Part shown: piece by piece, positions 5,042-45,100 of the stretch | Layout of the letters: each line of letters starts with the position of its first letter | Position numbering within the stretch: position 1 is the first letter of the stretch | From: Candidatus Dadabacteria bacterium | GTDB taxonomy: Bacteria; Desulfobacterota_D; UBA1144; Nemesobacterales; Nemesobacteraceae | DNA length: 64,000 nucleotides | NCBI GenBank assembly: GCA_028823955.1 | Contig: JAPPFE010000044.1 | Coordinates: forward strand, 1 to 64,000 | Direction: 5' to 3' | Notes under the pieces: model-generated | The model's database searches: none | What the model saw: the letters and a program-made list of their open reading frames with translations, nothing else | What the model was told of the DNA's origin: nothing | Program-made: the position numbers and the translations under genes

Positions 5042-5914
5042 CTATTCTATATTCTGAATCTGTTCCCGTATTTTCTCGAGTTCAAGGCGTACGCCTATTG
5101 TAAGGTGCGAGATCCCCGCGTCCTTGCATTTCGCCGATATCGTTCCCGCCTCCCTGTTCATTTCCTGGACCAGAAAGTCAAGTTCCTTCCCTACGGCCCC
5201 CTTTTTCCTGGCGGTTTTCCTGAACTTTGAGATATGAGCCTCAAGCCTTACGATTTCCTCGTCAATCTCGCTTTTCTCCGTGATTATTGCCGCGGCTTCC
5301 TGGGAGATAATGGGGTCGTTCTTGTGCTTTGAGGAGAAGATTTTCTCGATTTTTTCCTTAGTCTTTTTGTCGGACTTCTTTATGAATTCCTTTCGTTTCT
5401 TCTTTATGCCGTCAACAGTCTTTCTTATGACCTCCAGACGCCCGAGTATGGATTTTTCAAGTTTCTGTCCCTCGATTTCCCGGCTTTTGTTGAACTTTAC
5501 GAGAGTTTTTGCGACCGCTTCCTTGATTCTGGCTTCCGTCTCCCTTGAGACCTCTGGTCCGGCGTGGCTTTCAAAGGAGTTCTCCATCATGAGCAGGTGC
5601 TCAATTCCTATCTCCGTTCTGAGCCCCAGGGCGGAATTGATTCTTTTGAGGGAACTGTGATTTTCCCGGAGAACCTTTTCGGATAACCGCTGTCTTTCCT
5701 TTCTGTTTGCCTGCACGGAAAGCCTCAGGCGGAGCTTACCCCTCTGAATCGAGTTCTTCAGCCTGTCTTCAATGGTGGTTTCCATGTGGAGTAACGATTC
5801 GGGAACGCTGGCCTTGACGTCAAGGAACCTGTGGTTCTCCGACCGCATGTCCACCATGATCTTTCCGATCTCCGTGCTTACGGATGATTCCGCGAAACCT
5901 GTCATGCTTTTCAT
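5042..5914 (-). CDS. yicC: YicC/YloC family endoribonuclease
   Basis: Starts MKSMTGFA; ends ELDFLVQEMNREAGTISAKCKDAGISHLTIGVRLELEKIREQIQNIE, the typical YicC C-terminus. Confidence 0.9.
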   Translation of the reverse strand: MKSMTGFAESSVSTEIGKIMVDMRSENHRFLDVKASVPESLLHMETTIEDRLKNSIQRGKLRLRLSVQANRKERQRLSEKVLRENHSSLKRINSALGLRTEIGIEHLLMMENSFESHAGPEVSRETEARIKEAVAKTLVKFNKSREIEGQKLEKSILGRLEVIRKTVDGIKKKRKEFIKKSDKKTKEKIEKIFSSKHKNDPIISQEAAAIITEKSEIDEEIVRLEAHISKFRKTARKKGAVGKELDFLVQEMNREAGTISAKCKDAGISHLTIGVRLELEKIREQIQNIE

Positions 5915-6099
5915 GATAGTTTCCCCTTTTTCCTGTACCCTTTTTCTTTTTTCCCAAGCAGGATACCCGCAACGGGTTCCGCTTCGCAACCGCCTCCGGG
6001 TGTGCAGAGAAAACCGCGGCGCATGCCGCCGAAACTTGCCTGCGCCATTTTTCTCGTTTAACTTCTTAGTTTATTCACAGGATCTTCAGTTCCCGCTCC

Positions 6100-6576
6100 A
6101 TGAGAAAAGCTTATCTTTTCGTTCTGCCATTGCTGCTTCTTTTTGCTTCCTGCGCCATTCCCGTGCGAAGTCAAGACGCAAGAAGGCCGCAGCCGAGAGT
6201 TTCCGCCACCAGTGTGGTGAACTCTTTTCTCGAGGCGCTTAAGGAACGGGACTTTAAATCCGCTTACGACAAGATCCACATATTCAGTTCGGACCGCGAG
6301 GGTTACGTGAGCAGGTTCGAGCTTCTTTACGAGCGCTACGACATCAGGATAGTTGACTACAGGGTCTTGGCGACCCAGCTTTTCAAGGACACCGCCATAG
6401 TGGTTGCGGAAGTGGAGGTTGACTACAGGGAGCCGGGCGAAGACAAGCGTCAGAGGGCCAGATACACAAACCGCTACGATCTTTCCATACCCGAAAAAGA
6501 ATGGAAGATAATGAAGGACGAGTGCATTGAGAACTGCAGTTACGGACCGCAGGGCGGAGACGACGGAGGAGGCTAA
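6100..6576 (+). CDS. Putative lipoprotein of unknown function (possible NTF2-like fold)
   Basis: N-terminal signal with lipobox-like FASC. SVVNSFLEALKERDFKSAYDKIH resembles NTF2-like/DUF4864-type proteins; fold is inference. Confidence 0.6.
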   Translation: MRKAYLFVLPLLLLFASCAIPVRSQDARRPQPRVSATSVVNSFLEALKERDFKSAYDKIHIFSSDREGYVSRFELLYERYDIRIVDYRVLATQLFKDTAIVVAEVEVDYREPGEDKRQRARYTNRYDLSIPEKEWKIMKDECIENCSYGPQGGDDGGG

Positions 6577-6577
6577 A

Positions 6578-8508
<1,931 letters not shown>

Positions 8509-29796: not shown

Positions 29797-30255
29797 ATGA
29801 GGAAGATTCTTTTAGTTTTTCTGCTTTTTTTGGCGGTTCCGGTTTCTTCTTACGGAAAAGAAGAGGTTTACAAGACCTATACCGATATCGGAAAACTTGA
29901 ACCGCCGGCTGTAACCATTTCGCAGGTTCTCTCCTCACGTGATGAGTTTGACAGAAAGATATTCACCCTTGACGGGCAGGTGGGCGAACTGCGGTTCAAG
30001 AAGATGGTGAACGGAAGGAAGTTCACCCTGTTTCAGTTTTTTGAGAATGATCCGGAGAGAAGAATAAACGTTTACGCCAGAGGGTTCGTGGAAGGTATTG
30101 AGAACGGGAGCAAGATAAGGATCTGGGGCCGCTACAGCAAGCATAAAAGGTATTTTCTTTCCAAGCGCAAGAACATTATGAAGGCGAAAAAAATTCAGAT
30201 CGATGGGGTTCCGGAATCGGTACAGAGTGGAACTGAAGAGGAAAGTTCTTCTTAG
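29797..30255 (+). CDS. Exported protein of unknown function, possible OB-fold
   Basis: Signal peptide MRKILLVFLLFLAVPVSSYG; DEFDRKIFTLDGQVGELRFKKMVNGRKFTLFQF...GSKIRIWGRY resembles OB-fold tRNA_anti-like pattern (inference). Confidence 0.55.
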   Translation: MRKILLVFLLFLAVPVSSYGKEEVYKTYTDIGKLEPPAVTISQVLSSRDEFDRKIFTLDGQVGELRFKKMVNGRKFTLFQFFENDPERRINVYARGFVEGIENGSKIRIWGRYSKHKRYFLSKRKNIMKAKKIQIDGVPESVQSGTEEESSS

Positions 30256-30352
30256 TGAGTTGGTGTGTCAAGGCTAACTTTCATTGCATAAGGCACTCAA
30301 CTCATTTACTTGTAGTATTAACGCTATAATAGCGACGTTAGGACATTTTTTT

Positions 30353-31516
30353 TCAAGAATTTTTTCTGACTTGATCCCAGACCCATATACTCCATTTTGG
30401 AACTCCTCCACGGGCCCCAGAACTAAGCGATAGACGAATCTCCTTCACGTTCCAAAAAAGACCTTCAACCGCACGGACTGCTTTAGTTGCATCATCTTCC
30501 TCTGGTACGCACATTCTATGTGCCCAATCATTTCTAGATTTTCGAACATCTTCGAGCAACTTATATAGGTCATAATCGAGTCGGTTATTTGTCTCCAGAA
30601 ATTCTATAATTACTGATGTTGTATAATCTCTTCCTTCCAACTTCTTTTTTCGTTTGCGAGTCATACGATTGCTAACCTTTATGTCTTTCTGCAGAGTATC
30701 CCAAGCTAATGAAAGAAGCTGTTCGCAAACAGTCCATGCTAAAACTACGGCTTCTCCATACCGTTTCTCAGCGCATCTGCATGCAGCTATGTAAGCCGCT
30801 TCAATCCACTGGATTAGATTGGCGTCCTCTAGAGAAAGTATTTGATCGAGCAGCTTAAATGAATGTTCGATGACTTCTTTTTCCAGAATGCGGCGCGGGA
30901 AAGGCTGAATTCGTTGTACTCGATCTTTATTATTTAAAACGTTGCGCCCAAGGGCCCGTATATCTTCAATGTCGTCCCTGTAAGAAAAAACCGTGTCGAA
31001 AGTGAGTGCTTTGAGTGTGTTCCAAGAAGTTACAGGTAATCCCATCGCCGCGCTACGTCTTTTCACGGTTTTTTCCGAAGTCGTCAAGCACACTTGGTGG
31101 ACATTCATGACTTGCGCCCTAAAAACTGCATAGTTCTCGGCTTCATCTTCGGCGTTGGATGTTTCTAGGGGTATGCGATGAGGATTTCCCGGATCCGGAA
31201 TTCGATACCCAGGAATTATAACTAGTGGTGCAAGTGGCCAATAGGAGAAATCAAAAAGAAAAGTTCCATCGCGTTGTACACGAACCTCAATGCCACAATT
31301 CAGTATTGTCTTGAAAACTACAGCGTGGTGAATATCTGGATTTAGAATCGATACCGAGTCGGGATCAGGTTCTTCACCGACCCACACCGCTGGTATTCGA
31401 AAATAACCCTCAACCCCGGGTGAAACCCTGTCTGGCTTAATGGAAGGATCATCTGTCGGTTTCTTGAATAGTGATTCATCGTCTGTTGATCGATATGCCT
31501 GTGGGGGTTTGTCCAT
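30353..31516 (-). CDS. Hypothetical protein with C-terminal HEPN-like motif (putative ribonuclease/toxin)
   Basis: 387 aa; all-helical-looking C-terminus with LLEDVRKSRNDWAHRM = R-X4-H (RNDWAH) HEPN signature. Confidence 0.6.
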   Translation of the reverse strand: MDKPPQAYRSTDDESLFKKPTDDPSIKPDRVSPGVEGYFRIPAVWVGEEPDPDSVSILNPDIHHAVVFKTILNCGIEVRVQRDGTFLFDFSYWPLAPLVIIPGYRIPDPGNPHRIPLETSNAEDEAENYAVFRAQVMNVHQVCLTTSEKTVKRRSAAMGLPVTSWNTLKALTFDTVFSYRDDIEDIRALGRNVLNNKDRVQRIQPFPRRILEKEVIEHSFKLLDQILSLEDANLIQWIEAAYIAACRCAEKRYGEAVVLAWTVCEQLLSLAWDTLQKDIKVSNRMTRKRKKKLEGRDYTTSVIIEFLETNNRLDYDLYKLLEDVRKSRNDWAHRMCVPEEDDATKAVRAVEGLFWNVKEIRLSLSSGARGGVPKWSIWVWDQVRKNS

Positions 31517-31859
31517 TCTTTACCCTTTGACTGGCCCTGTAATGCGGTAGTCCAGTATACACAACCATAGCTCTGGTACATAATCTCCAAATCACCTTCT
31601 TTAGCAGACTTGAATTACAAAGTGACCTAGCTAAAGGTGTCAAAAAACGGTTGGTTTGTGAAAGCAACCTTCAGTTCCTAAATGAATGTGGCGATTCTCT
31701 TCGGACGAAAAAATTGTGTAGAATTAAATATTTAAAAGGTCTTACCAACTGTACCGTACGAATTTCGGGTCAGTATATCTGAATCGGTTTTTTATAAACC
31801 TGACTTTTAAGAAAACACTCACAAAAAAAGTAATGTCGGGGAAAATATTTTAAAAAATT

Positions 31860-33119
31860 ATGTCATCCAATGATAAGTTTGATTGGGGAGATGGGCTCCC
31901 TAAGCTTGAAATCCATAGTCGGGCCAAGCATGAAATTCTTCGAGAATATATAATTTCATATCTAAAAGTTGTTTGTCAGCCACAACGAATGCCCGAATTT
32001 AAAATTGCTCTAGTTGATGGATTTGCAGGAGGCGGAAGATATGAAGGTGGGAAGGTAGGTTCTCCTTTTGTTCTAATGCAGTCAGTAGATGAAGCCGAAT
32101 ATCTTATAAACTGTTCGCGTAATCCAACAACTCAGGTCAACATAAGAGCGAACTATTATTTTGTAGAGAAAAACAAGAATAACTACTTATATTTGCGACA
32201 AAGCATAAATGATAGCGAATACAAATCGAAACTTGGTGAAACCTTGTTCTTATTTAGGGGGGAATTTAAAGATTATCTTAAGAAAATAGTAGAAAGCATT
32301 AAAAGAACATCTCCTAGGGGAGGGGGAGGAGCAATATTTTTCCTTGATCAAACCGGATACACAGATGTCTCTATAGAGGATATGCAATATATCAGAAAGA
32401 ATCTTCCTCAGTCAGAAATCATTGTTACTGTTAGTATTGACTGGTTAATTGACTTTATTGAAGATGAAGAGAGCTTGAAAAGGACAACTGATAGTATTGG
32501 AATTACTCAATATTTGGACATAGATGAAATAGTAAGAATCAAGAAAGAAAAGTCAGTTGAATGGAGATCAATTATAGAATCAAAATTTTCAGTCGCATTT
32601 CAGAAAGCCGCTGAATACCGATTTTTCATACCGTTTTTCATAGAACCACTATATGGTCATAGAGGGTACTGGTTACTGCATCTCTCATCTAATGTTCGAG
32701 CTCATAATGTTATGATGCAATGTATATGGGACAAGGGTAATTTCATGAAGCATTATGGCAAGACTGGGCTGGACATATATAAAATTGCTTACAAGCCTTC
32801 TAACGGGGCAATACTGCCGGGAATGTCCTTTACGGAAGTGGAAAGAAAGCATCATAAAAAGGGGCTTATAGAAAAGATGCCCAGTTACATATGGGAAAAT
32901 GGGGGTGGATTATTGAAGGAGATTGTGGAGGATACTTGCAACAATACTGCAGCTGATTTGTCGCTGTATAAAGAGAGTTTGTCGGAAATTTGGGATCAAG
33001 GAGATATAGATGTTCGCGGCAAGGGCGGTGGAAAGAAGAAGAAACGGGAAATACACGACAGTGATATAATAATTCCCAATAGACAAAGATCATTTTTGTT
33101 TTTTCGAAACGGAGATTGA
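31860..33119 (+). CDS. tcmP: Three-Cys-motif partner protein TcmP
   Basis: KLEIHSRAKHEILREYIISYLKVVCQ...KIALVDGFAGGGRYEGGKVGSPFVLMQSVDEAE; next to a three-Cys Gp37/Gp68-like gene. Confidence 0.85.
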   Translation: MSSNDKFDWGDGLPKLEIHSRAKHEILREYIISYLKVVCQPQRMPEFKIALVDGFAGGGRYEGGKVGSPFVLMQSVDEAEYLINCSRNPTTQVNIRANYYFVEKNKNNYLYLRQSINDSEYKSKLGETLFLFRGEFKDYLKKIVESIKRTSPRGGGGAIFFLDQTGYTDVSIEDMQYIRKNLPQSEIIVTVSIDWLIDFIEDEESLKRTTDSIGITQYLDIDEIVRIKKEKSVEWRSIIESKFSVAFQKAAEYRFFIPFFIEPLYGHRGYWLLHLSSNVRAHNVMMQCIWDKGNFMKHYGKTGLDIYKIAYKPSNGAILPGMSFTEVERKHHKKGLIEKMPSYIWENGGGLLKEIVEDTCNNTAADLSLYKESLSEIWDQGDIDVRGKGGGKKKKREIHDSDIIIPNRQRSFLFFRNGD

Positions 33120-33122
33120 CTC

Positions 33123-33890
33123 ATGGGTATATCAAAGATTGAATGGACAGAGCAAACTTGGAATCCTGTTACAGGATGCACCAAGATATCTGCAGGTTGT
33201 AAAAATTGCTATGCGGAAGTGATGGCAAAAAGGTTGCAAGCAGCGAAGGTTCCTGGATACGAATCTGGATTCGAAGTCAAGCTTCACCCCGGGCGATTAA
33301 ACCAGCCACTTAATCGTAAAATAGCGACCATGTATTTTGTCAATTCAATGAGCGATTTATTTCACCCTAAAGTTCCATTTCATTTCATAGATAGAGTTTT
33401 TAAGGTCATGAGCGAAACCCCGCAACACATCTATCAGATACTGACCAAAAGACCAGACAGAATGAAACGTTATTTTAATGCAAGGGAAGTTCCTCAGAAT
33501 GCTTGGCTTGGTGTCTCAGTGGAAAATCAAAAGCATGGACTACCCCGCATTAATGTTCTAAGAGAGATTAAGGCAGACATACTTTTTCTTTCGATTGAAC
33601 CCTTGCTTGAAGAGTTGGGGGAAATAAATCTATCTAACCTCCACTGGGTAATAGTTGGAGGGGAGTCTGGATCTAAGGCTCGTCCCATGAAGCCGCAATG
33701 GGTGGAGTCTATTCAGGTTCAGTGTAAGGATCAGAACATCCCTTTCTTTTTTAAGCAGTGGGGAACTTGGGGGCCTGATGGTATACGCCGAAGTAAAAAA
33801 GCCAATGGCAGACTCCTTAATAACAGAATGTGGAATGAAATGCCTGTTCTATCAAAATATAAAGAGAATCAACTACTAAAATTCTTTTAA
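33123..33890 (+). CDS. Phage Gp37/Gp68 (DUF5131) family protein with three-Cys motif
   Basis: SKIEWTEQTWNPVTGCTKISAGCKNCYAEVMAKRLQ, LTKRPDRMKRYF, NAWLGVSVENQ, WVIVGGESGSKARPM, FFFKQWG. Confidence 0.9.
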   Translation: MGISKIEWTEQTWNPVTGCTKISAGCKNCYAEVMAKRLQAAKVPGYESGFEVKLHPGRLNQPLNRKIATMYFVNSMSDLFHPKVPFHFIDRVFKVMSETPQHIYQILTKRPDRMKRYFNAREVPQNAWLGVSVENQKHGLPRINVLREIKADILFLSIEPLLEELGEINLSNLHWVIVGGESGSKARPMKPQWVESIQVQCKDQNIPFFFKQWGTWGPDGIRRSKKANGRLLNNRMWNEMPVLSKYKENQLLKFF

Positions 33891-34145
33891 CCAAGAGAGA
33901 TTATGCTCAAGTTCTCTGGGCACTCGGTTTGAGAATAAATCGGATAAGTGTGGAAAGTCCCTGAGAAAAGCCATGACCGAGATAGAAAAACCAGAGGTAA
34001 TTCACAGGAGAAATTGTTGCTGCCTCTGCCTTCCTATTGACGGCCTCTCTTTGCTGCTTGTATCATTTCAATATCTGCACCAGTAAACGACCTTGAAAAA
34101 AGATACAAACCATCCGGGTTTATGTGGTGACTGGAAAAGACTACC

Positions 34146-37100
34146 TTGAGCCAGAAACCTGAAAACAGCAACGGAACCGGCGGGAGTTCCGAATCCGCAA
34201 AAGCCCTTAACAGTGCTCTTGCTAGGTGGCGAGTTGATGCGAGCGGGCCTCTTTTAAAAAGGGAATACGACAAGGGTAAGGCGTTTGAGCGGCTCTGCGA
34301 AGTATTCCTTACCCACGACCCTGTTCAGTCAATGCAGTATGAATCTCCGGTTCCGTGGGAGGACTGGGCGGAGCGGCACGGTATGCTCAAAATGGATACC
34401 GGTGTTGATCTTGTTGCGAAACTGCGAAACGAAGACGGCTGGTGCGCCATTCAATGCAAATTTTACGCGGAAGGAAAAACAATTCCCAAGGCCGAGATCG
34501 ACTCATTTCTTTCCGCGTCAGGTTCAGAACATTTCCGCAGACGTCTCATCATAGACACTACGGGTCGTGGGTGGAGTAAAAACGCGGAAGATACACTCCG
34601 CAGGCAGGCGGTGCCCGTAAGCAGAATAGGTCTTTCCGATCTGCGCAGAACCAGCATCAGATGGGAGGATTACCTTTCTGCGGAGAAAATCCAGTTTAAG
34701 CCGGAAAAGACTCTTAGAGGATACCAAAAGAAAGCTTTGGAAAAGGCCACCTCGGGGCTTTCAGAACCCCAAAGTCGCGGGAAGATGATCATGGCCTGCG
34801 GCACCGGAAAAACGCTCACGTCGCTTCGCGTCGCGGAAGAAATTGCGGGACCTGGCTGCCGCGTTCTCTACATGGTGCCAAGTCTGGCACTTATGTCTCA
34901 GACCGTAAGAGAGTGGGCGCAGGACAAGGAGATTCCCATTCGCGCTTTTGCCGTGTGTTCGGATTCCCAGGTTGGCAAGAGAAGAATCAGACAGGACGAT
35001 CTTGCCGATATAGACGCGCTTGATCTTGTTTTTCCGGCTACCACGGATCCGGAGAAGCTTGCTGAAAAAACGCAAGCCGCGGCAGCAGACGCTCCTGAAG
35101 CGATGATTGTTGTCTTTGCCACTTATCAGTCAAGTTCTGTTATTGAACAAGCGCAGAAAGATTGTGGGCTCCCCAATTTTGATCTTGCCGTCTGCGATGA
35201 GGCTCATCGTACCGCCGGGGCTTTTTCCAGTGACACCGAACAGAGCAACTTTGTAAGAATTCACCGTGATGAATACATAAAAACAGAACGCCGTCTCTAC
35301 ATGACGGCAACGCCCAAAGTCTACGCGGAGAGTGCGCGCACACGTGCGGGAAATCTGGAGGCAGAACTGTGTTCGATGGAGGATGAGTCGATTTACGGCC
35401 CCGTTCTTTATGAAATCGGTTTTGGTGATGCGGTGGAACTGGGATTGCTGAGCGACTACAAGGTGCTTGTGCTTGTGGTGGGGCAGGACGAGGTATCGCG
35501 GGTAATCCACCGAAGCTTGGCGAACGAAGAAAACAAGCTTGAGCTTGACGACAACGCCAAGCTTTTAGGATGCTGGCGGGCGCTTGCAAAGATTGATAAG
35601 GATGAATTTCCCGAAGAAGAAAGAAAGCCGATGCGTCGCGCAATTGCTTTTTGCAACAGAATCAAGACCTCAGAGCAGGTTGAAAGGAATTTTGCGAATG
35701 TGATAGACGAATACCGGGAGCATAGCGGTCTTTCCGAGCACAGAATCTCCGCAAGACATGTGGACGGTAGTTTCAACGCTTCGCGCCGCTCGGAACTGCT
35801 TGACTGGCTTGCGGATGAGGGGGGATGGGATGAATGTCGGGTGCTTACAAATGCCAGGTGTCTTTCAGAAGGAGTCGACGTTCCCACGCTTGATGCTATC
35901 CTGTTCATGCATCCGAGAAAAAGCCAGATAGAAGTGGTTCAGGCGGTCGGACGCGTAATGCGCACGTCCCCCGGAAAGAATATGGGCTACGTGGTTCTTC
36001 CCGTGGTAATTCCCTCGGGGGTTGCCCCGGAAGACGCACTTTCGGACGATAAACGGTTCCAAGTGGTATGGCAGACTCTTAACGCGATAAGAAGTCATGA
36101 TGAACGCTTTGAAGGAATTCTGAACCTTATCGAACAGGGAAGCGAAGGAGACCGTATCGGGATAATCACACTTTCGGGCTGGACGGAACCGAGACCGGAT
36201 TCTCCGGTTCCTAGGAACGGAAGAGGGGATGATACGAATGGCAGGCCGAATAACGTTCACCCTATACCCATACTGTTTGAAGGACTTCCCGAAGCCATCC
36301 GTGCAAAGATTGTTGAGAAATGCGGAGACCGCAAGTACTGGGATGAATGGGCTTCTGATGTAGCAGACATAGCCGGAAGCCATATAGCGCGCATACGGGC
36401 AATAGTAGAGTCGGGAGATGCCGAGCGGGAGATATTCCGGGAGTTTGTGACGGAACTGCGGGATGATCTGAATGAGGGAGTCACAGAAGACGACGCTATT
36501 GAGATGCTGGCGCAGCACATGGTCACTGGACCTGTGTTCGATGCTCTTTTCGGAGACGCTGCGTTTGTCTCGCGCAATTCGGTGAGCCGTGGCATGCAGA
36601 CGGTTCTTGATGTTCTTGAACCGAAGAACATCAAGAAAGAATCGGAAAATCTTGACGATTTTTACGCAAGCGTCCGCAGACGCGTGGAGGGGGCTTCAAC
36701 GGCTGAAGCCAGACAGAAAATAATTGTTGAGCTTTACGACAAGTTTTTCCGAAACGCTTTCCCGCTTGCAACTCAGAAACTCGGAATCGTCTACACACCC
36801 GTTGAGATAGTGGATTTTATAATACGTTCTGTAAACGATGTGCTTTCGGATGAATTCGGCTCGTCCCTGGGCACAGAAGGAGTGCATATATTGGATCCAT
36901 TCACCGGCACTGGAACTTTCATCACCCGGCTGCTTCAGTCAGAGCTCATTGCTCCCGGGGATATTCAGCGCAAATATGAAAACGAGATTCACGCAAACGA
37001 GATAACGCTCCTTGCCTACTATATAGCGGCTGTAAACATAGAGTCCGTATATCATTCCGTTGCGAACCGAGAAGACTATGAATCATTCAAAGGCATATGT

Positions 37101-39260
37101 CTCACAGACACATTTGAGATGCACGAGGGGAAGCCGGATCTTTACGCGCAGATAATGCCCCAGAATTCTGATCGCAGAACAAGACAGAAAAAAACCGACA
37201 TACGAGTGATCATGGGGAATCCGCCGTGGTCGGCGGGGCAGAAAAGTGCAAATGACAATGCTCAGAATCAGTCCTATGAAACACTTGACGGCCGCATTGC
37301 GGAAAGCTACGCGGCGCATTCAAGTGCCACCAACAAAAACAGCCTTTACGACAGTTATATCCGCGCTATCCGCTGGTCAAGCGACAGGATCGGAAAAAGC
37401 GGTGTCATAGGGTTTGTTACTAATGCCGGATGGCTTGATGGCAGCGCAATGGACGGAATGCGCAAGTGTCTTGCGGAGGAATTCAGCAGTGTTTACGTGT
37501 TTCATCTGCGGGGAAATGCGCGCACTCAGGGAGAGCAGCGTCGCAAGGAAAAGGACAATGTTTTCGGGGGAGGCTCCCGCGCTCCTGTTGCAATTACAAT
37601 CCTTGTAAAGAATCCGGAAGCGGAAGAGCGGGGCAGGATATTTTTCCATGACATAGGTGATTATCTGAGCCGTGAGAAGAAAACAGAGATCATCAGCAAA
37701 TTCAGAAGCATAAAGGGAATCTATGAAAATAGAGGGTGGAGCCGTATACTGCCCGACAAAACCCACGACTGGATCAACCAGCGCGACCCGGAATTTAACA
37801 GGTTTCTGATGATGGGGAGCAAGGATAAAGAACAGAATTCGGAATCCAGGGCTTTCGCAAATTACTCAAGGGGTATTGCCACTGGCCGGGATGCCTGGTG
37901 CTACAATTTCTCAGCAGAAACTCTCAAGACGAATATTCAAGCGATGATTGAGTTCTACAATTCGGAACTTGCCCGCTACGAGACTGAACGGCCTGGAACA
38001 TCGAAACAGGCAGTTGATAATTTCGTCAACAATGATCCGAAAAGAATCAGTTGGACAACAAATCTTAAAAACGATCTCAGCAGAGCGAAAGTGCTGGATT
38101 TTTCCGAGGGCAGAATCGCAAGTTCAATCTACAGACCCTTCACCAGACAGTGGCTTTACTTCAGTCGTCGTCTCAACGAGAGGGTTTACCAGATTCCGCA
38201 CATATTTCCGCATGAGGATGCGGAAAACAAGCTTATATGCGTGACCGGGGTCGGAGCGGGGGGTGGTTTTTCCGCTCTTATGGTTGACTCTATGCCAGAC
38301 ATTCAAACTGTTTTCAACGGGCAATGCTTCCCGCTTTATCTCTATGAAAAACCGCAGGAAGGAAGTCTCCTCAATCAGAAAAAAGAAAAAACTGACAGGC
38401 ACGGTTATGTCCGCCGAGACGCGATAACTGAGGATACTCTTTTGATATTCCAAGAAGCATACGGTACTGAGATCACAAGACCGGAGATATTCAATTACAT
38501 CTATGGACTGCTTCATGTTCCCGTCTACAGAGACCGCTTCGCGAACAATCTCTCCAAACAGCTTCCTAATGTTCTGCTAGCTACTGATAAAAAACATTTT
38601 TACGCACTCACAGAAGCAGGAGAGAAACTCGGCAATCTCCACACGGGATTTGATCGCGTAGAACCATGGCCGATTGAATTCTCAAAAGGAGGGTGGAAAG
38701 TTCCGGAGGAAATATTGCCTGATAAATGGTTTCGGGTGAATAAGATGAAGCTTGCGGGCAGTCAGAACTCTCCTGACAGAACATCGATTTTCTACAACGA
38801 CAACATAACCGTCTGCGGAATCCCGGAAGAGGCCTGGGAGTATGAAGTGAATGGGAAACCTGCTCTCAAGTGGGTTATGGAACGACAATGCGTAAGCCCA
38901 GACGCAAAAAGCGGTATTATGAACGACGCTAACATTTACGCGACTGAGACTGCGGGCGATCCTTCTTATCCGCTCAAGCTGCTTGCTTGGGTGATCCGCG
39001 TCAGCATTGAAACTACACAAATCATCAAGTCGCTTCCAGGACCCAAATGGCGAGAAATTGACCCTGAAAAAGTGACTAAAAAAGCCGACGACAAACTTCT
39101 GACTGCTCTGGATAGTGATGAGCATGGAGGCTCTCCGGCCACAGCTTCCGTCGAGGAGAAACCCCGCTTTAAAGTTGCTGATTCCGATGAAGTTGATGCG
39201 GCTATTGCAAAGCGCAAAGGCAAGATACAGCCAATTCTAGATTATCTAAAAGATAAGTAG
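34146..39260 (+). CDS. Type ISP-like single-polypeptide restriction-modification enzyme (Mrr-like nuclease, SF2 helicase, N6-adenine methyltransferase, target recognition)
   Basis: 1704 aa; N-terminal GVDLVAK...WCAIQCKFY nuclease motif; Walker A MACGTGKTLTS; DEAH box (VCDEAHRTAG); MTase motif I DPFTGTGTFITRLLQ and motif IV NPPW. Confidence 0.88.
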   Translation: MSQKPENSNGTGGSSESAKALNSALARWRVDASGPLLKREYDKGKAFERLCEVFLTHDPVQSMQYESPVPWEDWAERHGMLKMDTGVDLVAKLRNEDGWCAIQCKFYAEGKTIPKAEIDSFLSASGSEHFRRRLIIDTTGRGWSKNAEDTLRRQAVPVSRIGLSDLRRTSIRWEDYLSAEKIQFKPEKTLRGYQKKALEKATSGLSEPQSRGKMIMACGTGKTLTSLRVAEEIAGPGCRVLYMVPSLALMSQTVREWAQDKEIPIRAFAVCSDSQVGKRRIRQDDLADIDALDLVFPATTDPEKLAEKTQAAAADAPEAMIVVFATYQSSSVIEQAQKDCGLPNFDLAVCDEAHRTAGAFSSDTEQSNFVRIHRDEYIKTERRLYMTATPKVYAESARTRAGNLEAELCSMEDESIYGPVLYEIGFGDAVELGLLSDYKVLVLVVGQDEVSRVIHRSLANEENKLELDDNAKLLGCWRALAKIDKDEFPEEERKPMRRAIAFCNRIKTSEQVERNFANVIDEYREHSGLSEHRISARHVDGSFNASRRSELLDWLADEGGWDECRVLTNARCLSEGVDVPTLDAILFMHPRKSQIEVVQAVGRVMRTSPGKNMGYVVLPVVIPSGVAPEDALSDDKRFQVVWQTLNAIRSHDERFEGILNLIEQGSEGDRIGIITLSGWTEPRPDSPVPRNGRGDDTNGRPNNVHPIPILFEGLPEAIRAKIVEKCGDRKYWDEWASDVADIAGSHIARIRAIVESGDAEREIFREFVTELRDDLNEGVTEDDAIEMLAQHMVTGPVFDALFGDAAFVSRNSVSRGMQTVLDVLEPKNIKKESENLDDFYASVRRRVEGASTAEARQKIIVELYDKFFRNAFPLATQKLGIVYTPVEIVDFIIRSVNDVLSDEFGSSLGTEGVHILDPFTGTGTFITRLLQSELIAPGDIQRKYENEIHANEITLLAYYIAAVNIESVYHSVANREDYESFKGICLTDTFEMHEGKPDLYAQIMPQNSDRRTRQKKTDIRVIMGNPPWSAGQKSANDNAQNQSYETLDGRIAESYAAHSSATNKNSLYDSYIRAIRWSSDRIGKSGVIGFVTNAGWLDGSAMDGMRKCLAEEFSSVYVFHLRGNARTQGEQRRKEKDNVFGGGSRAPVAITILVKNPEAEERGRIFFHDIGDYLSREKKTEIISKFRSIKGIYENRGWSRILPDKTHDWINQRDPEFNRFLMMGSKDKEQNSESRAFANYSRGIATGRDAWCYNFSAETLKTNIQAMIEFYNSELARYETERPGTSKQAVDNFVNNDPKRISWTTNLKNDLSRAKVLDFSEGRIASSIYRPFTRQWLYFSRRLNERVYQIPHIFPHEDAENKLICVTGVGAGGGFSALMVDSMPDIQTVFNGQCFPLYLYEKPQEGSLLNQKKEKTDRHGYVRRDAITEDTLLIFQEAYGTEITRPEIFNYIYGLLHVPVYRDRFANNLSKQLPNVLLATDKKHFYALTEAGEKLGNLHTGFDRVEPWPIEFSKGGWKVPEEILPDKWFRVNKMKLAGSQNSPDRTSIFYNDNITVCGIPEEAWEYEVNGKPALKWVMERQCVSPDAKSGIMNDANIYATETAGDPSYPLKLLAWVIRVSIETTQIIKSLPGPKWREIDPEKVTKKADDKLLTALDSDEHGGSPATASVEEKPRFKVADSDEVDAAIAKRKGKIQPILDYLKDK

Positions 39261-39262
39261 GC

Positions 39263-39634
39263 ATGAAATATTTATCACCTGAGAGGGTGATTGCCATGCA
39301 TGAGCAGGTTGTTGGACCTGACGAGCTGCAAGGCATAGCCCTGAATAAATCCATTGAGTCCGTTTTGGCTCGTGTCGAGAACCGCGTAGCCTATGAAATG
39401 ATTGAGGATGTGTTTGAGCTTGCTGCTTGTTACGCATGTTGTATCGCAGTTGGTCATGCGTTCAATGATGGTAACAAGAGAACCGCATTTAAGGCAATGG
39501 ATACTTGCTTGACCGTAAACGGCATAGAATTGGATTTTGACACGGTGGAAGCGGGTGAGATGATGATTAAAGTTGCCCAGGGTATTGTTGATGAAAAAGA
39601 ATTGGCGGAGTGGCTTAGAACTCTGGTTCGATAA
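39263..39634 (+). CDS. doc: Death-on-curing (Doc) family Fic toxin
   Basis: GHAFNDGNKRTAFKAMDTCLTVNGIELDF = Fic motif HxFxDGNKRTA; starts 2 nt after the RM stop codon. Confidence 0.88.
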   Translation: MKYLSPERVIAMHEQVVGPDELQGIALNKSIESVLARVENRVAYEMIEDVFELAACYACCIAVGHAFNDGNKRTAFKAMDTCLTVNGIELDFDTVEAGEMMIKVAQGIVDEKELAEWLRTLVR

Positions 39635-39697
39635 AGTTTCCGAACTCAAGGTGTTTAGAATGACTGTGGATAGTGATTGTTCGTGCCACAAGCCTCT

Positions 39698-40537
39698 CTA
39701 AGAAAGTAGGCGGGCGAGTTTACGATAGCAATCCAGTGCTTTTCTTTTCTCATTTTTAGGGAGCTTTCTGGTCACCATCTTGAATGCATTGTCTAGACCC
39801 CATGCGTATCCGATGTCCACTATTATTTCCCCAGATTCCTCCGCAGTTCTTCGAGCGGGGATTTTGTTACGGTTAGATAGCTCGACCAATTCGTGAATCT
39901 TGTTTTTGTCCGAGATCAGCACCGGCGCACAGCATTCAATTGCTCTGCCCATAACGAGTGTTGCTAGACGTGCCGGATCGGTTGGAATCTCATCCCAGAT
40001 GTACCAGATGATTGGAGCACAATTCTTCTGTTTTGCTTGCTCTAAAATGTGGAAGCACTCGGTTGCGTCCAGAATCCGTTCTTTTGGTATCAATCCTACA
40101 TATACTAATCCTTGATCAGTCTCTACATAACACCTAGGTTTCTCCAAGATTTGCCAACCCGAACGCCCCAAGACTGCTGGTTGTTCGTTGATCAACTTAA
40201 TACGGATGGGTTTTCTAGGAGTTCCACTCCGGTCTTTTTGTGATTTTTTTGGGCATGGAAGTTTAGACCAATCCAGCGGTTGGCCAACCATACTCATATC
40301 AAGATTGACTATGTAAACGATTCCCGACTCGTTGCATTGCGAGAGGGGCTGTGCGACCTCAGAGCCTGCTTTTCTTCCTGCGAGCTCTCTACCGTCTGGA
40401 GAAAAGGCAAAAGGATGAGTTCGGCTTCCACCTTTGTCATGTAGCGTGCACAGGGCAAAGAAACGATTCTCTACCGCCCTTAGACGCAGCATTGAAGACC
40501 ATTTGATGTCTTTGACATTGTCGAAACTTGGATTTAC
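39698..40537 (-). pseudogene. Downstream part of the same nitrilase-fusion gene, in the same frame after the TAG
   Basis: Conceptual translation across the stop is ...LASRGARV[TAG]VNPSFDNVKDIKWSSMLRLRAVENRFFALCTLHDKGGSRTHPFAFSPDGREL..., the expected nitrilase continuation; no frame change and no further stop until 39698. Confidence 0.75.
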
Positions 40538-42010
40538 CTACACACGAGCGCCACGTGAAGCCAGAAAGCGGGGAAGTAAGCCTAGGTATTGATCGTGACA
40601 AATAGTGGCTCCGACTTTGACGTTTCCCAATTCGAAAGTTGGAAGCATGGTGTTCGGTTCCCAATCTGGCTTCTCGAAGGCAACTGCTTCCGCGGTGGAG
40701 TGTTTTGTGTATAAATGGCGACAAGAACCGTCGGGATCAATGCGAAGGAGGATTTGCCAGTCGGCTGAATCTCCTGCTAAATTGAAATTCTTTTCAACAG
40801 CACCTACTAACAATGGAGCATCTAGGTCTGATGCGAGTTTCAGCAACAGTTTGATACGTGTATTGTCAACTGAGGAGATGTAGCTTTCTGGAAAGAGTAC
40901 AAAATCGACGGTTTCACCAGCGAATGAGGCGAGGGTAGGTATGTCAGGTTCCTGGGCTCCTGCCCCGCTTGGTGGAACACCGTTTAAAGTTGTTGCGTTC
41001 ACTTTAGGAAAGACTAAAGCCACCCGTAGAGTGGAGTGCTCGGTAGCAAGCTGAGTGTCGGTCTTCTCCATCGCTTGACTGGACGGAGCACTGTCCTGAA
41101 ATGCGATATTCAAGAAACGCCTGCGGTCGTCGTTGCTATCGGGATCAAGTAAACACCATGCGAAATCGCGGGCGTACAGTCTTAAAGTTGGCAGAAAACC
41201 TTTGAGTGATGGGATAATATCTCGGAGGGTGTCATACCAAGCCCGTTGTTCGTCGCGGTAGGGTGGGTTGTTATCTTTTGCATTATGCTGTTCACACAGA
41301 GCGGTCCAGCGCGATCTGGAGAACCCTAGGGGGTTGGCATCTGGATATTTAGAAAGTGAGAGCTTCCGTAGTTTTGTAAAATGTTGACTTTCGTCAAACT
41401 CAACGATGAATCCAGGGTCGGGGACCCAGAAGTCACAAGGTGGCAAAGTTTTGGCTCTTACAAAGTTTTCGAACCCGAAGCCACGGTATCCTTCCAAGGC
41501 GGTAGCCACTTTCTGCAAAGCGTGAAAGATTGAAGTCTCCGAGTAAGAGGAAATACGTGTCGACCACTGGAATTTGTGTTCTCGCACGCATTCTCCGTAG
41601 ATTCGCTCCAGAATCTCGTGAACCCGTATTTTGCATTCAGGACACCGCTCGTCGGAGTGACGTATAAGTTTGCTTGTGGGTTCCGTCTCCATCTTTGGAT
41701 CAGACGGAAGTATGGATAGCTTAGTCTTATTCTGGCTACCACAAGTGCACTCGATAATATCAAATCCAAGAGATTCGAGAAATTTGTTGGACTCGGAGCC
41801 ACCTTCAAACTCATCTGACCGCAAGAATCGTCCGGTGGCTATCTTATGAGCCAATGCAATGGTGTATTTCGGAGGAAAGTGATCCCCGTCTTTTGCCAAA
41901 CAGTAATCCCTGCTTTTCCTCCGAGAGGGAACACCATCTCGTCTGATATGCTGAATGGCTTCTAAGATACAAGACTTCGTTATGAATGAAGGGATCATGG
42001 TTTTTCTCAA
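40538..42010 (-). CDS. Upstream part of a multidomain protein: 'PPKY' module + nuclease-like segment + carbon-nitrogen hydrolase (nitrilase) domain, ending at an in-frame TAG
   Basis: FPPKYTIALAHKIATGRFLRSDEFEGGSESNKFLESLGFDI; CDFWVPDPGFIVEFDESQHFTK; nitrilase triad context FPESYIS (Glu), LYTKHSTAEAVAFEKPDW (Lys), VGATICHDQYLG (Cys). Confidence 0.72.
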   Translation of the reverse strand: MRKTMIPSFITKSCILEAIQHIRRDGVPSRRKSRDYCLAKDGDHFPPKYTIALAHKIATGRFLRSDEFEGGSESNKFLESLGFDIIECTCGSQNKTKLSILPSDPKMETEPTSKLIRHSDERCPECKIRVHEILERIYGECVREHKFQWSTRISSYSETSIFHALQKVATALEGYRGFGFENFVRAKTLPPCDFWVPDPGFIVEFDESQHFTKLRKLSLSKYPDANPLGFSRSRWTALCEQHNAKDNNPPYRDEQRAWYDTLRDIIPSLKGFLPTLRLYARDFAWCLLDPDSNDDRRRFLNIAFQDSAPSSQAMEKTDTQLATEHSTLRVALVFPKVNATTLNGVPPSGAGAQEPDIPTLASFAGETVDFVLFPESYISSVDNTRIKLLLKLASDLDAPLLVGAVEKNFNLAGDSADWQILLRIDPDGSCRHLYTKHSTAEAVAFEKPDWEPNTMLPTFELGNVKVGATICHDQYLGLLPRFLASRGARV

Positions 42011-42152
42011 TTACACTTAGCGTACTGAATTTGCCTCGATTTTCTTTTCTTTTTTCAGTTTGGATATACTGTTATCCAACAGGTTTTAATTTCCTGAAGG
42101 TTCTTAGCAGCAAAACCGACCTTTCTTGAAGTCTCCGGCATTTTTTTGCTAG

Positions 42153-45100
42153 ATGAAGCTAATTTATCATCCTAAACAATCCACTTTCAAAAATCTTTTC
42201 AAAAAATACGGGCTTAACCCAAGTGATGAGACAATCCTTTTCCTTCTCCCCGGCGTCTCGGTTGTGCAGGAAATAGAAGATTATTACTCTGGCGAGGGGG
42301 TATGGGGAAAAAACCTGCTTACGTTCAATGAACTTTCGGATTTTGTAAACGAGGCGTCTCCGAACCTAAAAAAGAAAAGGATATCAAGGACTCAGGCCCT
42401 ATCTGTAACCAGGAAAGCAGCGGAATCAGTCTCGGGAGACCTTGAGATCTTCAAGGAATTTTCGAAGAATCGGGATTTTCTTGACTCCGTAGCTTCCATT
42501 GTTTCAAAACTGAAACAAACCAAAGTTTCTGTAAAGGAACTTGTCGGGTCTCCCAAGAGAATCAAGGCTCGGAGCTTGCGGAAAAAACTCTCGGATATAG
42601 GGCTTGTCTACGAAAAATACGAAGCGCTTGTCGCCGAGAGAGACTTTCTTGATGATGCGGATTCTGCCCGTGTCGTTTCAGAAGAGTTAGAGAGGGAAGG
42701 GCTTACCCCGTTTTTCCCATCCGCGAAAAAGCTTGTTATTTTTGGATTTTCCGATTTTACGATTTGTGAGCTTGATGTGATAAAGAGCCTTTCCTCGGCG
42801 GTTTCAGGAACCTTCTTTTTCGTAAGCGACTTCGGCGAGCTGGATGAATACAGAAGCTATTTTCTGGAAAAGCTTCGCGAAGCTTCCATAGTTTATGAAG
42901 AAAATTCCGCAGTGACAGATGAAGTCCTCGAAGCTAAGACTCAAAGCGAGTTCGGTGAGTTTCGGGACTCTCACGATGAAATTGAGTACGTCTCAAGGAA
43001 GATTAAAAAGCTCATTGTGGATGAGGAGTGTAAAGCCTCCGATTTTAAGGTTCTTGTCAGGTCATCGCAGAAACGCGGGCGCTCCATAGCCAATATATTC
43101 GAGAAAAACGGAGTTGCGGTCGACCTCAGAAACTCCGGGACCTTGGCCGGGAGCGTATACGGGCGCCTTGCGGGTGATATCCTTCGCCTCAAATCAGGCA
43201 ATTTTCACAGAAACGACCTGATCGGACTTCTTTGCAACCCGCTTTTTGCCCTCTATCTGGGAGAGTCTGAGTTCTCGCAGCGCAGCGCCAATCTCGTAAA
43301 GGAGATTTCCTCCGCAAGCGTTTCCTCCGAAGACAGGAAATACAGGACCGTAAGCGGTATCTCGGGTTGGAAGAGGATCCTGGAACACATAGTGGAACGG
43401 GATGCCCAGCTGTCCGCGGTCGCCCATGATATAGGCTCGGCACTTGATTCGGTATCGTCAAAGTTCGGAAAAAGAACTTTTGCCGCGATGACTTCTGATC
43501 TGAGAAAGATTTTTTCAGAACTCAGGGTTTCTGAGAGTTCGGCACTGCTTATAGAGAGAAATCAAACCACCAGGGAGTGTTTCGATGAATTTTTCTCTTT
43601 TCTGAGGGAGCTTTCCTTTTCTTACGGAGAGTTCGATTTCCGGGTTTCAGACCCCGGAGAGTATCTTCTTTTTCTGGATGAGTTCATGGGAGAGAGAACG
43701 GTTCTCTATAAAACTCCCTGCGATGGCGATTCGGAAAGGGTGAGCGTTACTGATTTCTCCGTAGCCCGCGGAATAAACCCGAAGTTTCTTTTTCTGGCCG
43801 GTCTTTCGGATACTTGTTTTCCTTCGCCTCTTCCTGCGGATCCCGTGCTCAAGCCCAGGGAGAAGGCGGAAATAAACCGGGCGCTTAAAAAAAAGGTGTT
43901 TGATGAGGAAGGTCTTCATTATGAAAAGGAAAAACATCTTTTCTCCACCCTTAGCACTGCCTCTTCTGAGAAGGTCTTTCTTTCCTGCTTCCGCTACGAC
44001 CAGAAATCAAGGGATGTAATCCGCTCTGACTTTCTTGAGGAAATGGGGATCTCTCCTCCGGCGCGGCGCTCTGAAAACTTCTCGGAACCTGGAGAGATAT
44101 TCTCTAGGGAAGATGTCTTGTTTTACTGTTTTTCACCTTCGAGGATACCGGATGTCGACCCTAAGATCGCCGAGGTCATAAGAGAGCACTACGGTTCGGA
44201 TATGGTTGGTTATCTCTCGGGTGGTATTTCCGCCGAGAGAAAAAGACTTGATCTTGAGGGGAATTATACGAATTTCGAAGGGGTTCTCCGTAACGCCCCT
44301 CCGTACCCGGACACTTTTTCACCCACAAAGCTCGAAACCTACGGGACATGTCCCTTCATGTATTTTTCGAAGGAAACGCTGAAACTGGATGTGGTCGGGG
44401 ATCCCGACGAACAGAAGGCCTCGCAGCTTGACCTTGGCTCACTTGCCCACGAGATCCTCAAGGAGTTCATGGAGACAGTTTTCGCCGATGGCTCCGACTG
44501 GCCAGAAGCGAGCCGTATTGCGGAGGTCTATGAGAAACTCAGAAGGAAGTACGAAACGAAGCCCGGGATTTTCTCCCATCTCCCAAAGAATGTAGCGGAG
44601 ATTGGAAAGAAAAGGTTTTTTGACTGCATTTTACCGAACTTCATCACCGATGAGATTCAAAGAATCGGAAAGGATGAATTCATCCCCTGGGTTTTCGAAC
44701 AAAAAGTCAATTTTCGCATCGGGAATGCAGAAATCAGTGGAAAAGTGGACAGGGTAGATGTCCACAGAGACGACAAGAAGAAAACCGCGGTTATCGATTA
44801 CAAGATCGGAAGCGTAAAAGGGAGAAAATATTTTGATTTTGAGAATCTGCAGCTTCCCCTTTACCTAAAGGCGCTGTTTGATGAAGGGGCTGCTCCCTCC
44901 AGGGGATCTTATCTTTCAATCGGAAGACCGGGAGAAAGCGTTTCTTCCAAAGACCCTTATCTTGATGAAGCGGCTTCGCTTGCGGAGTACTACGTGGAGA
45001 ACATAAAGAAAGGGTTTTTTCCTCCCTATGTGGGGAAAAAAGAGAAGAACCAGGAAGCCCACTACCTCGAGATGTCCAAGGGTCGTCCCTGTTCTTACTG

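Follow-up and report, generated by a model that had tools for sequence, protein, structure and literature searches.

A gene for a large four-part protein lies on the minus strand of the window, the 64,000-nucleotide stretch of a Candidatus Dadabacteria contig (JAPPFE010000044.1, assembly GCA_028823955.1) analysed here, between a Doc gene and addAB (Table 1). It can be read from the ORF list and its translation that positions 39698-42010 (-) hold a single frame of 770 codons plus stop with one in-frame TAG, by which the frame is split into 490 amino acids and a downstream open stretch. Judged from the sequence, the start codon is likely the ATG at codon 5 (41998), since its Met is invariant in the alignments and starts two of the relatives; the TTG at 42010 is an alternative start.

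The island around this gene also carries a type ISP restriction-modification (RM) enzyme, a TcmP/DUF5131 pair and a HEPN-like protein. The TcmP-like and DUF5131 proteins (31860-33890, +) match the two components of PDC-M30, a PADLOC candidate system. A 387-residue protein encoded at 30353-31516 (-) is without a Pfam match; over its C-terminal half it shows weak similarity to Csx1/Csm6 CARF-HEPN models (E=1.3e-5). The ISP ORF (34146-39260, +) ends in ~65 residues that are those of the C-terminal part of a Phd-like antitoxin, the one encoded ahead of Doc in sister genomes, and the RM gene thus seems to be fused in frame to the antitoxin.

Table 1. Window positions of the fusion gene, its parts and its island neighbours.
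Feature	Positions	Strand	Basis or remark
Whole gene, interrupted by one TAG	39698..41998	-	ORF list, translation, alignment with uninterrupted relatives
In-frame TAG, codon 491	40538..40540	-	Sequence and translation
ScoMcrA-type N-terminal head domain, residues 5-92	41735..41998	-	BLASTP and profile comparison
Nuclease-like domain, residues 117-310	41081..41662	-	Alignments with stand-alone relatives
Putative catalytic motif D193-x10-E204-x-D206-x2-Q209-H210	41381..41434	-	Motif scan, HHalign register with DUF559
Carbon-nitrogen hydrolase (nitrilase), residues 328-585	40256..41029	-	PF00795, E=1.8e-13
Triad codon E375	40886-40888	-	Alignment with relatives
Triad codon K436	40703-40705	-	Alignment with relatives
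Triad codon C471	40598-40600	-	Alignment with relatives
C-terminal domain, residues 600-770	39701..40213	-	Seen only in this fusion family
Type ISP RM enzyme and Doc/Fic gene	34146..39634	+	Neighbours in the same island

Relatives and their distribution

A scan of GTDB genomes yielded four relatives (L007, L008, L009 and L010), and L027 was added by a profile search. The sequenced relatives are few and come from metagenome-assembled genomes (MAGs). L010, from Candidatus Dadabacteria, is a 770-residue uninterrupted copy at the same chromosomal site with 93% identity; the copies of Nitrospira bin75 (L007, 67% identical) and of two Latescibacterota genomes (L008, 65% identical; L027, 769 aa and 56% identical) are likewise uninterrupted, and L009 from Nitrospira RHO3_bin_20 (659 aa) is devoid of the head domain. 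The four-part architecture which the earlier note had read from the window alone recurs, then, as uninterrupted copies of 759-772 aa and 56-93% identity in three phyla, and its occurrence in Dadabacteria, Nitrospira and Latescibacterota indicates that it is real and not a product of chance.

The family is present in two of the 58 genomes of the window's own phylum and in 2/396 Nitrospirota genomes, and the 64 Latescibacterota genomes hold two full-length members and one stand-alone relative of the nuclease part. Such sporadic distribution points to a horizontally moving accessory gene, and the close similarity across phyla together with the patchy presence suggests horizontal transfer. Searches of phages, plasmids and viral contigs yielded no full-length relative, and viral contigs yielded no relative of the nuclease part or of the C-terminal part either.

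Domain composition and the internal stop

The head domain follows the pattern FPPKYTIALAH..ATGRFL...F.GG...FLESLGF and, in a single pairwise BLASTP comparison, is 30% identical over 84 positions to a Rhodococcus HNH endonuclease (E=4e-8). A profile that includes this Rhodococcus protein matches residues 4-93 of ScoMcrA (5zmm) with E=1.8e-6, whereas the profile built from the family only reaches E=1.1 over the same span, so that the link to ScoMcrA depends on the intermediate sequence. With this bridge, the "PPKY" module, which had been associated with McrA/HNH-like restriction proteins, proved to be the head domain of that enzyme type. In common with ScoMcrA and other head-domain HNH modification-dependent restriction enzymes, the fusion has an N-terminal head of ~90 residues, which in ScoMcrA is small and flexible with a function described as unknown (PMC6224610); however, the fusion differs from these enzymes by its nitrilase, and no SBD, SRA, EVE or HNH domain was detected in it with Pfam.

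The nuclease-like domain carries an N-terminal CxxC (C123, C126), and alignments with stand-alone relatives show invariant residues including D193, E204, F205, D206, E207, Q209 and H210. Stand-alone relatives that align along this domain are a 228-residue protein of a Mucilaginibacter plasmid (E=0.004 in the database search, 1e-10 pairwise) and a 334-residue Latescibacterota protein (L028). Both lie above the 27-bit Pfam gathering cut-off of DUF7255 (PF23913), a family of unknown function, with 38.2 and 29.4 bits recorded for the stand-alone entries P0009 and P0012, whereas the fusions score 11.9-20.1 bits (18.9 for the window fusion) and fall under it. In Nitrospirota, the DUF7255 search returned sub-threshold noise only. 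A truncated stand-alone relative from Nitrospirota (L035, 1876-2184) was also seen, in which the homology ends abruptly after the QHF motif.

A scan of open frames amounting to 359,843 aa located the D-x10-E-x-D-x2-QH pattern only in DUF559 proteins and in this fusion family. HHalign against DUF559 aligns the two motifs in register and outscores each of 150 column shuffles, but at a probability of only 13-38% and with a head-domain control scoring nearly as high. The DUF559/Vsr-type endonuclease-like proteins also have, as judged by eye, a similar downstream DExR..L plus R strand pattern, but the fusion carries a longer insert between the parts of the motif and the Pfam DUF559 model does not match it. 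Weak endonuclease-like hints were obtained from PHROGs (E about 0.1), and the PDB search with the nuclease profile returned nothing notable.

The AlphaFold models gave no usable fold, with mean pLDDT of 39.7 for the full protein (4 sequences) and 37.9 for the nuclease segment (8 sequences), and structure searches with the full-protein model brought up, for the most part, weak matches to nitrilases of the PDB and, from the viral library, noise. Since both models are of low confidence, the nuclease assignment rests on the motif, register and family evidence. The resemblance to Vsr/PD-(D/E)XK-type nucleases put forward in the earlier note is thus partly borne out, by the motif shared with DUF559 proteins, and residues 117-310 are a likely candidate for a Vsr/DUF559-like nuclease.

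The PF00795 match to the nitrilase domain (50.8 bits, cut-off 23.2) and a Glu-Lys-Cys triad that is invariant among the relatives leave the carbon-nitrogen hydrolase of the initial reading as a real one. At E446, the position of the second conserved Glu in the usual tetrad, L027 has Gly instead. With reference to solved structures, the nearest are Nit2 (2w1v, E=3e-7) and NitFhit (1ems, E=3e-6), with which the triad is held in common; the fusion nitrilase differs from that branch in being divergent, embedded in a 770-residue protein and variable at the second Glu. This genome has five further nitrilase-superfamily genes, and those alignments to them that are significant show 24-27% identity; the sequence marks the domain as divergent rather than as a recently copied metabolic gene from the same genome.

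For the C-terminal domain, no Pfam, PHROG or convincing PDB match was obtained, in keeping with the unknown type first assigned to it. It was not found outside the fusion family in the genomes searched, and the 396 Nitrospirota genomes hold no stand-alone relative of it. Predicted secondary structure had raised the possibility of a PIN, TIR or RNase H-like fold for it, which was abandoned as unsupported.

The internal TAG lies 20 codons past the catalytic Cys, within the nitrilase domain, where a sense codon stands in the aligned relatives. Besides terminating this gene, TAG does so in at least five of the 18 window genes inspected; being a normal terminator here, it is to be taken as a true stop at 40538-40540, and stop-codon reassignment was ruled out. 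The nitrilase domain whose triad context was described as apparently intact is thus interrupted in this copy, and the gene is probably non-functional. Comparison with L010 gave a dN/dS of 0.17 overall, 0.07 for the nitrilase, which is under the strongest purifying selection within the protein, and 0.04 for residues 492-585 past the stop. Constraint therefore runs along the whole protein and persists beyond the TAG, which indicates either a very recent interruption or an assembly error.

It is consequently quite likely that the window copy, and this copy only, is a recently broken pseudogene, without function if truly broken, or else an intact gene bearing an assembly error. A lone TAG in an otherwise open frame, its ordinary use as a stop in the window and the selection signal downstream of it all speak for this reading, while a head-nuclease product of 490 aa is still possible against it. 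In our estimation the copy is probably newly broken and not functional; the question concerns the copy and not the family, and its answer is compatible with every explanation of the family given below.

Genomic neighbourhoods

In the genus of the window genome, the interval from a 152-aa lipoprotein-like gene to addB is a variable insertion site (29797-42153 in the window; L051-L061). There, PD-T7-4 (E=1.9e-73) occurs together with a ThsA-like SIR2 protein in one sister genome, and other genomes of the genus have a SulP permease, a Gp49/HTH toxin-antitoxin pair, IS110, or Phd-Doc only. In L010, which lacks the counterpart of window positions 30256-39059, the fusion gene is kept along with the Doc region and the 3'-terminal part of the ISP gene. 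It is likely but not certain that an ISP restriction enzyme was formerly present in L010, the uncertainty arising because some of this retained 3' sequence is the former antitoxin gene that belonged with Doc. The doc frame of L010 (12314-12951) has an early stop, and most of the RM island is missing.

Beyond the genus, a SIR2-like gene lies directly downstream of the fusion in Nitrospira bin75, the fusion of the Latescibacterota locus L008 is preceded by an Mrr-like gene and followed by a D12 methylase, and on the Mucilaginibacter plasmid the stand-alone nuclease relative has GmrSD on one side and a Z1/PLD/methylase cluster on the other. For L027 and L009, no neighbour with a clear link to defence was seen, a MazE-like gene excepted. 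Overall, the context is defensive in five loci, namely the window, the same site in the sister genome with PD-T7-4, Nitrospira bin75, L008 and the plasmid of the stand-alone relative, and neutral in two. The uninterrupted architecture stands beside defence genes in several places. In L009, a MazE/AbrB-like ORF immediately precedes the headless version of the gene (5151-7330).

The neutral loci bring up a distinctly unlikely explanation, in which the protein is an accessory metabolic or signalling amidase that has captured a DNA-binding head and is unrelated to phage defence. Besides these two loci, the genuine Nit2-like character of the nitrilase and the ordinary cargo that is also taken up at the own-genus site, such as the SulP permease, are in its favour. 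However, the nuclease-like module and the restriction-type head are conserved together with the nitrilase, the stand-alone nuclease relative adjoins restriction genes, and the low identity to the genome's other nitrilase-superfamily genes and the sporadic distribution are likewise at odds with such a role.

The position beside addAB in Dadabacteria could be taken to indicate a DNA-modifying or repair enzyme, of which the Vsr/DUF559-like module would nick at particular bases and the nitrilase fold would transfer or remove an amide or acyl group on the base. Some members of the nitrilase superfamily act as acyltransferases (Lnt), and a Vsr/DUF559-like motif would suit such an enzyme. Nevertheless, a modification operon is absent nearby and the addAB-side site is a variable insertion site, not a conserved operon, which renders this explanation very improbable.

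Proposed mode of action

At E<0.01, the fusion protein is without a match in PADLOC-DB 2.0.0; matches to DpdD and REase_II (E about 0.05) were too weak and were not counted as evidence. The earlier note had held that the arrangement is not a recognised system and that no reverse transcriptase (RT) is present, and both statements stand, with no PADLOC-DB 2.0.0 model matching and no RT in the Pfam, PADLOC and NCBIfam scans. In the literature covered, outside which most subscription journals lie, nitrilases in defence were found only fused to reverse transcriptases, and the fusion appears to combine parts of known kinds in an undescribed way.

A published defence protein to which the fusion can be likened is DRT1, the class 3 UG-Abi RT-nitrilase, also a large protein in which a DNA-directed part is joined to a nitrilase (PMC13275509). 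The nitrilase domain of DRT1 has been proposed as a phage-activated effector of abortive infection that is controlled by oligomerisation, and all contacts of the DRT1 tetramer come from it (PMC13275509). The fusion differs by having no RT and by its restriction-type head, its nuclease-like module and a private C-terminal domain after the nitrilase.

Given the two enzymatic modules and the genomic context, a defence protein is favoured, and the fusion is probably a so far unrecognised phage-defence protein. Within this reading, we tentatively prefer a single-protein anti-phage factor in which the DNA-facing head and nuclease-like part would switch on a nitrilase effector, leading to abortive infection; the switching-on and the abortive outcome are proposed by analogy with DRT1 (PMC13275509), and DNA-triggered abortive infection is plausible. 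The head and the DUF559/Vsr-like module (residues 5-310) would probably recognise, and perhaps cut, incoming DNA. Once the DNA-facing part is engaged, the nitrilase (328-585) would become active as an amidase-type effector, most likely via oligomerisation, and would destroy an amide- or amine-bearing metabolite or make a toxic product, upon which the infected cell would stop growing. A part in completing or gating the nitrilase site, or in assembly, may fall to the C-terminal domain. The architecture, its recurrence, the conserved nuclease-like motif and triad, the purifying selection and the defence neighbourhoods in several loci are seen directly in the sequences; that the protein acts as a nuclease, is triggered by DNA, uses its nitrilase as effector and defends against phages is what we infer.

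The tetramer contacts of DRT1 (PMC13275509) also lend themselves to an unlikely alternative, namely a restriction-type nuclease whose effector step is DNA cutting and whose nitrilase fold serves mainly as an oligomerisation core. The head and the nuclease-like motif do match restriction enzymes; against this, the nitrilase keeps an invariant triad and is more constrained than any other part of the protein (dN/dS 0.07), which is beyond the needs of a scaffold. The preferred reading, that of a nitrilase effector, can be narrowed to a one-protein system without RT, where a DNA-sensing restriction-type module directly activates a nitrilase that depletes or poisons a cell metabolite; in this specific form we consider it somewhat doubtful.

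If true, nitrilase chemistry would have been recruited to phage defence a second time and independently, here together with a private C-terminal domain; nitrilases are described as uncommon in such defence. A recurring restriction-nitrilase fusion free of RT would be a simpler protein in which to look for the target that a defence nitrilase cuts and for the signal that activates it, and would also offer a setting in which to study the ScoMcrA head domain (PMC6224610).

As regards the origin of the relatives, Nitrospira bin75 (MPMZ00000000) comes from the sponge Aplysina aerophoba (PMC5649159), and the names of the remaining MAGs suggest a possible sponge or reef origin for them.
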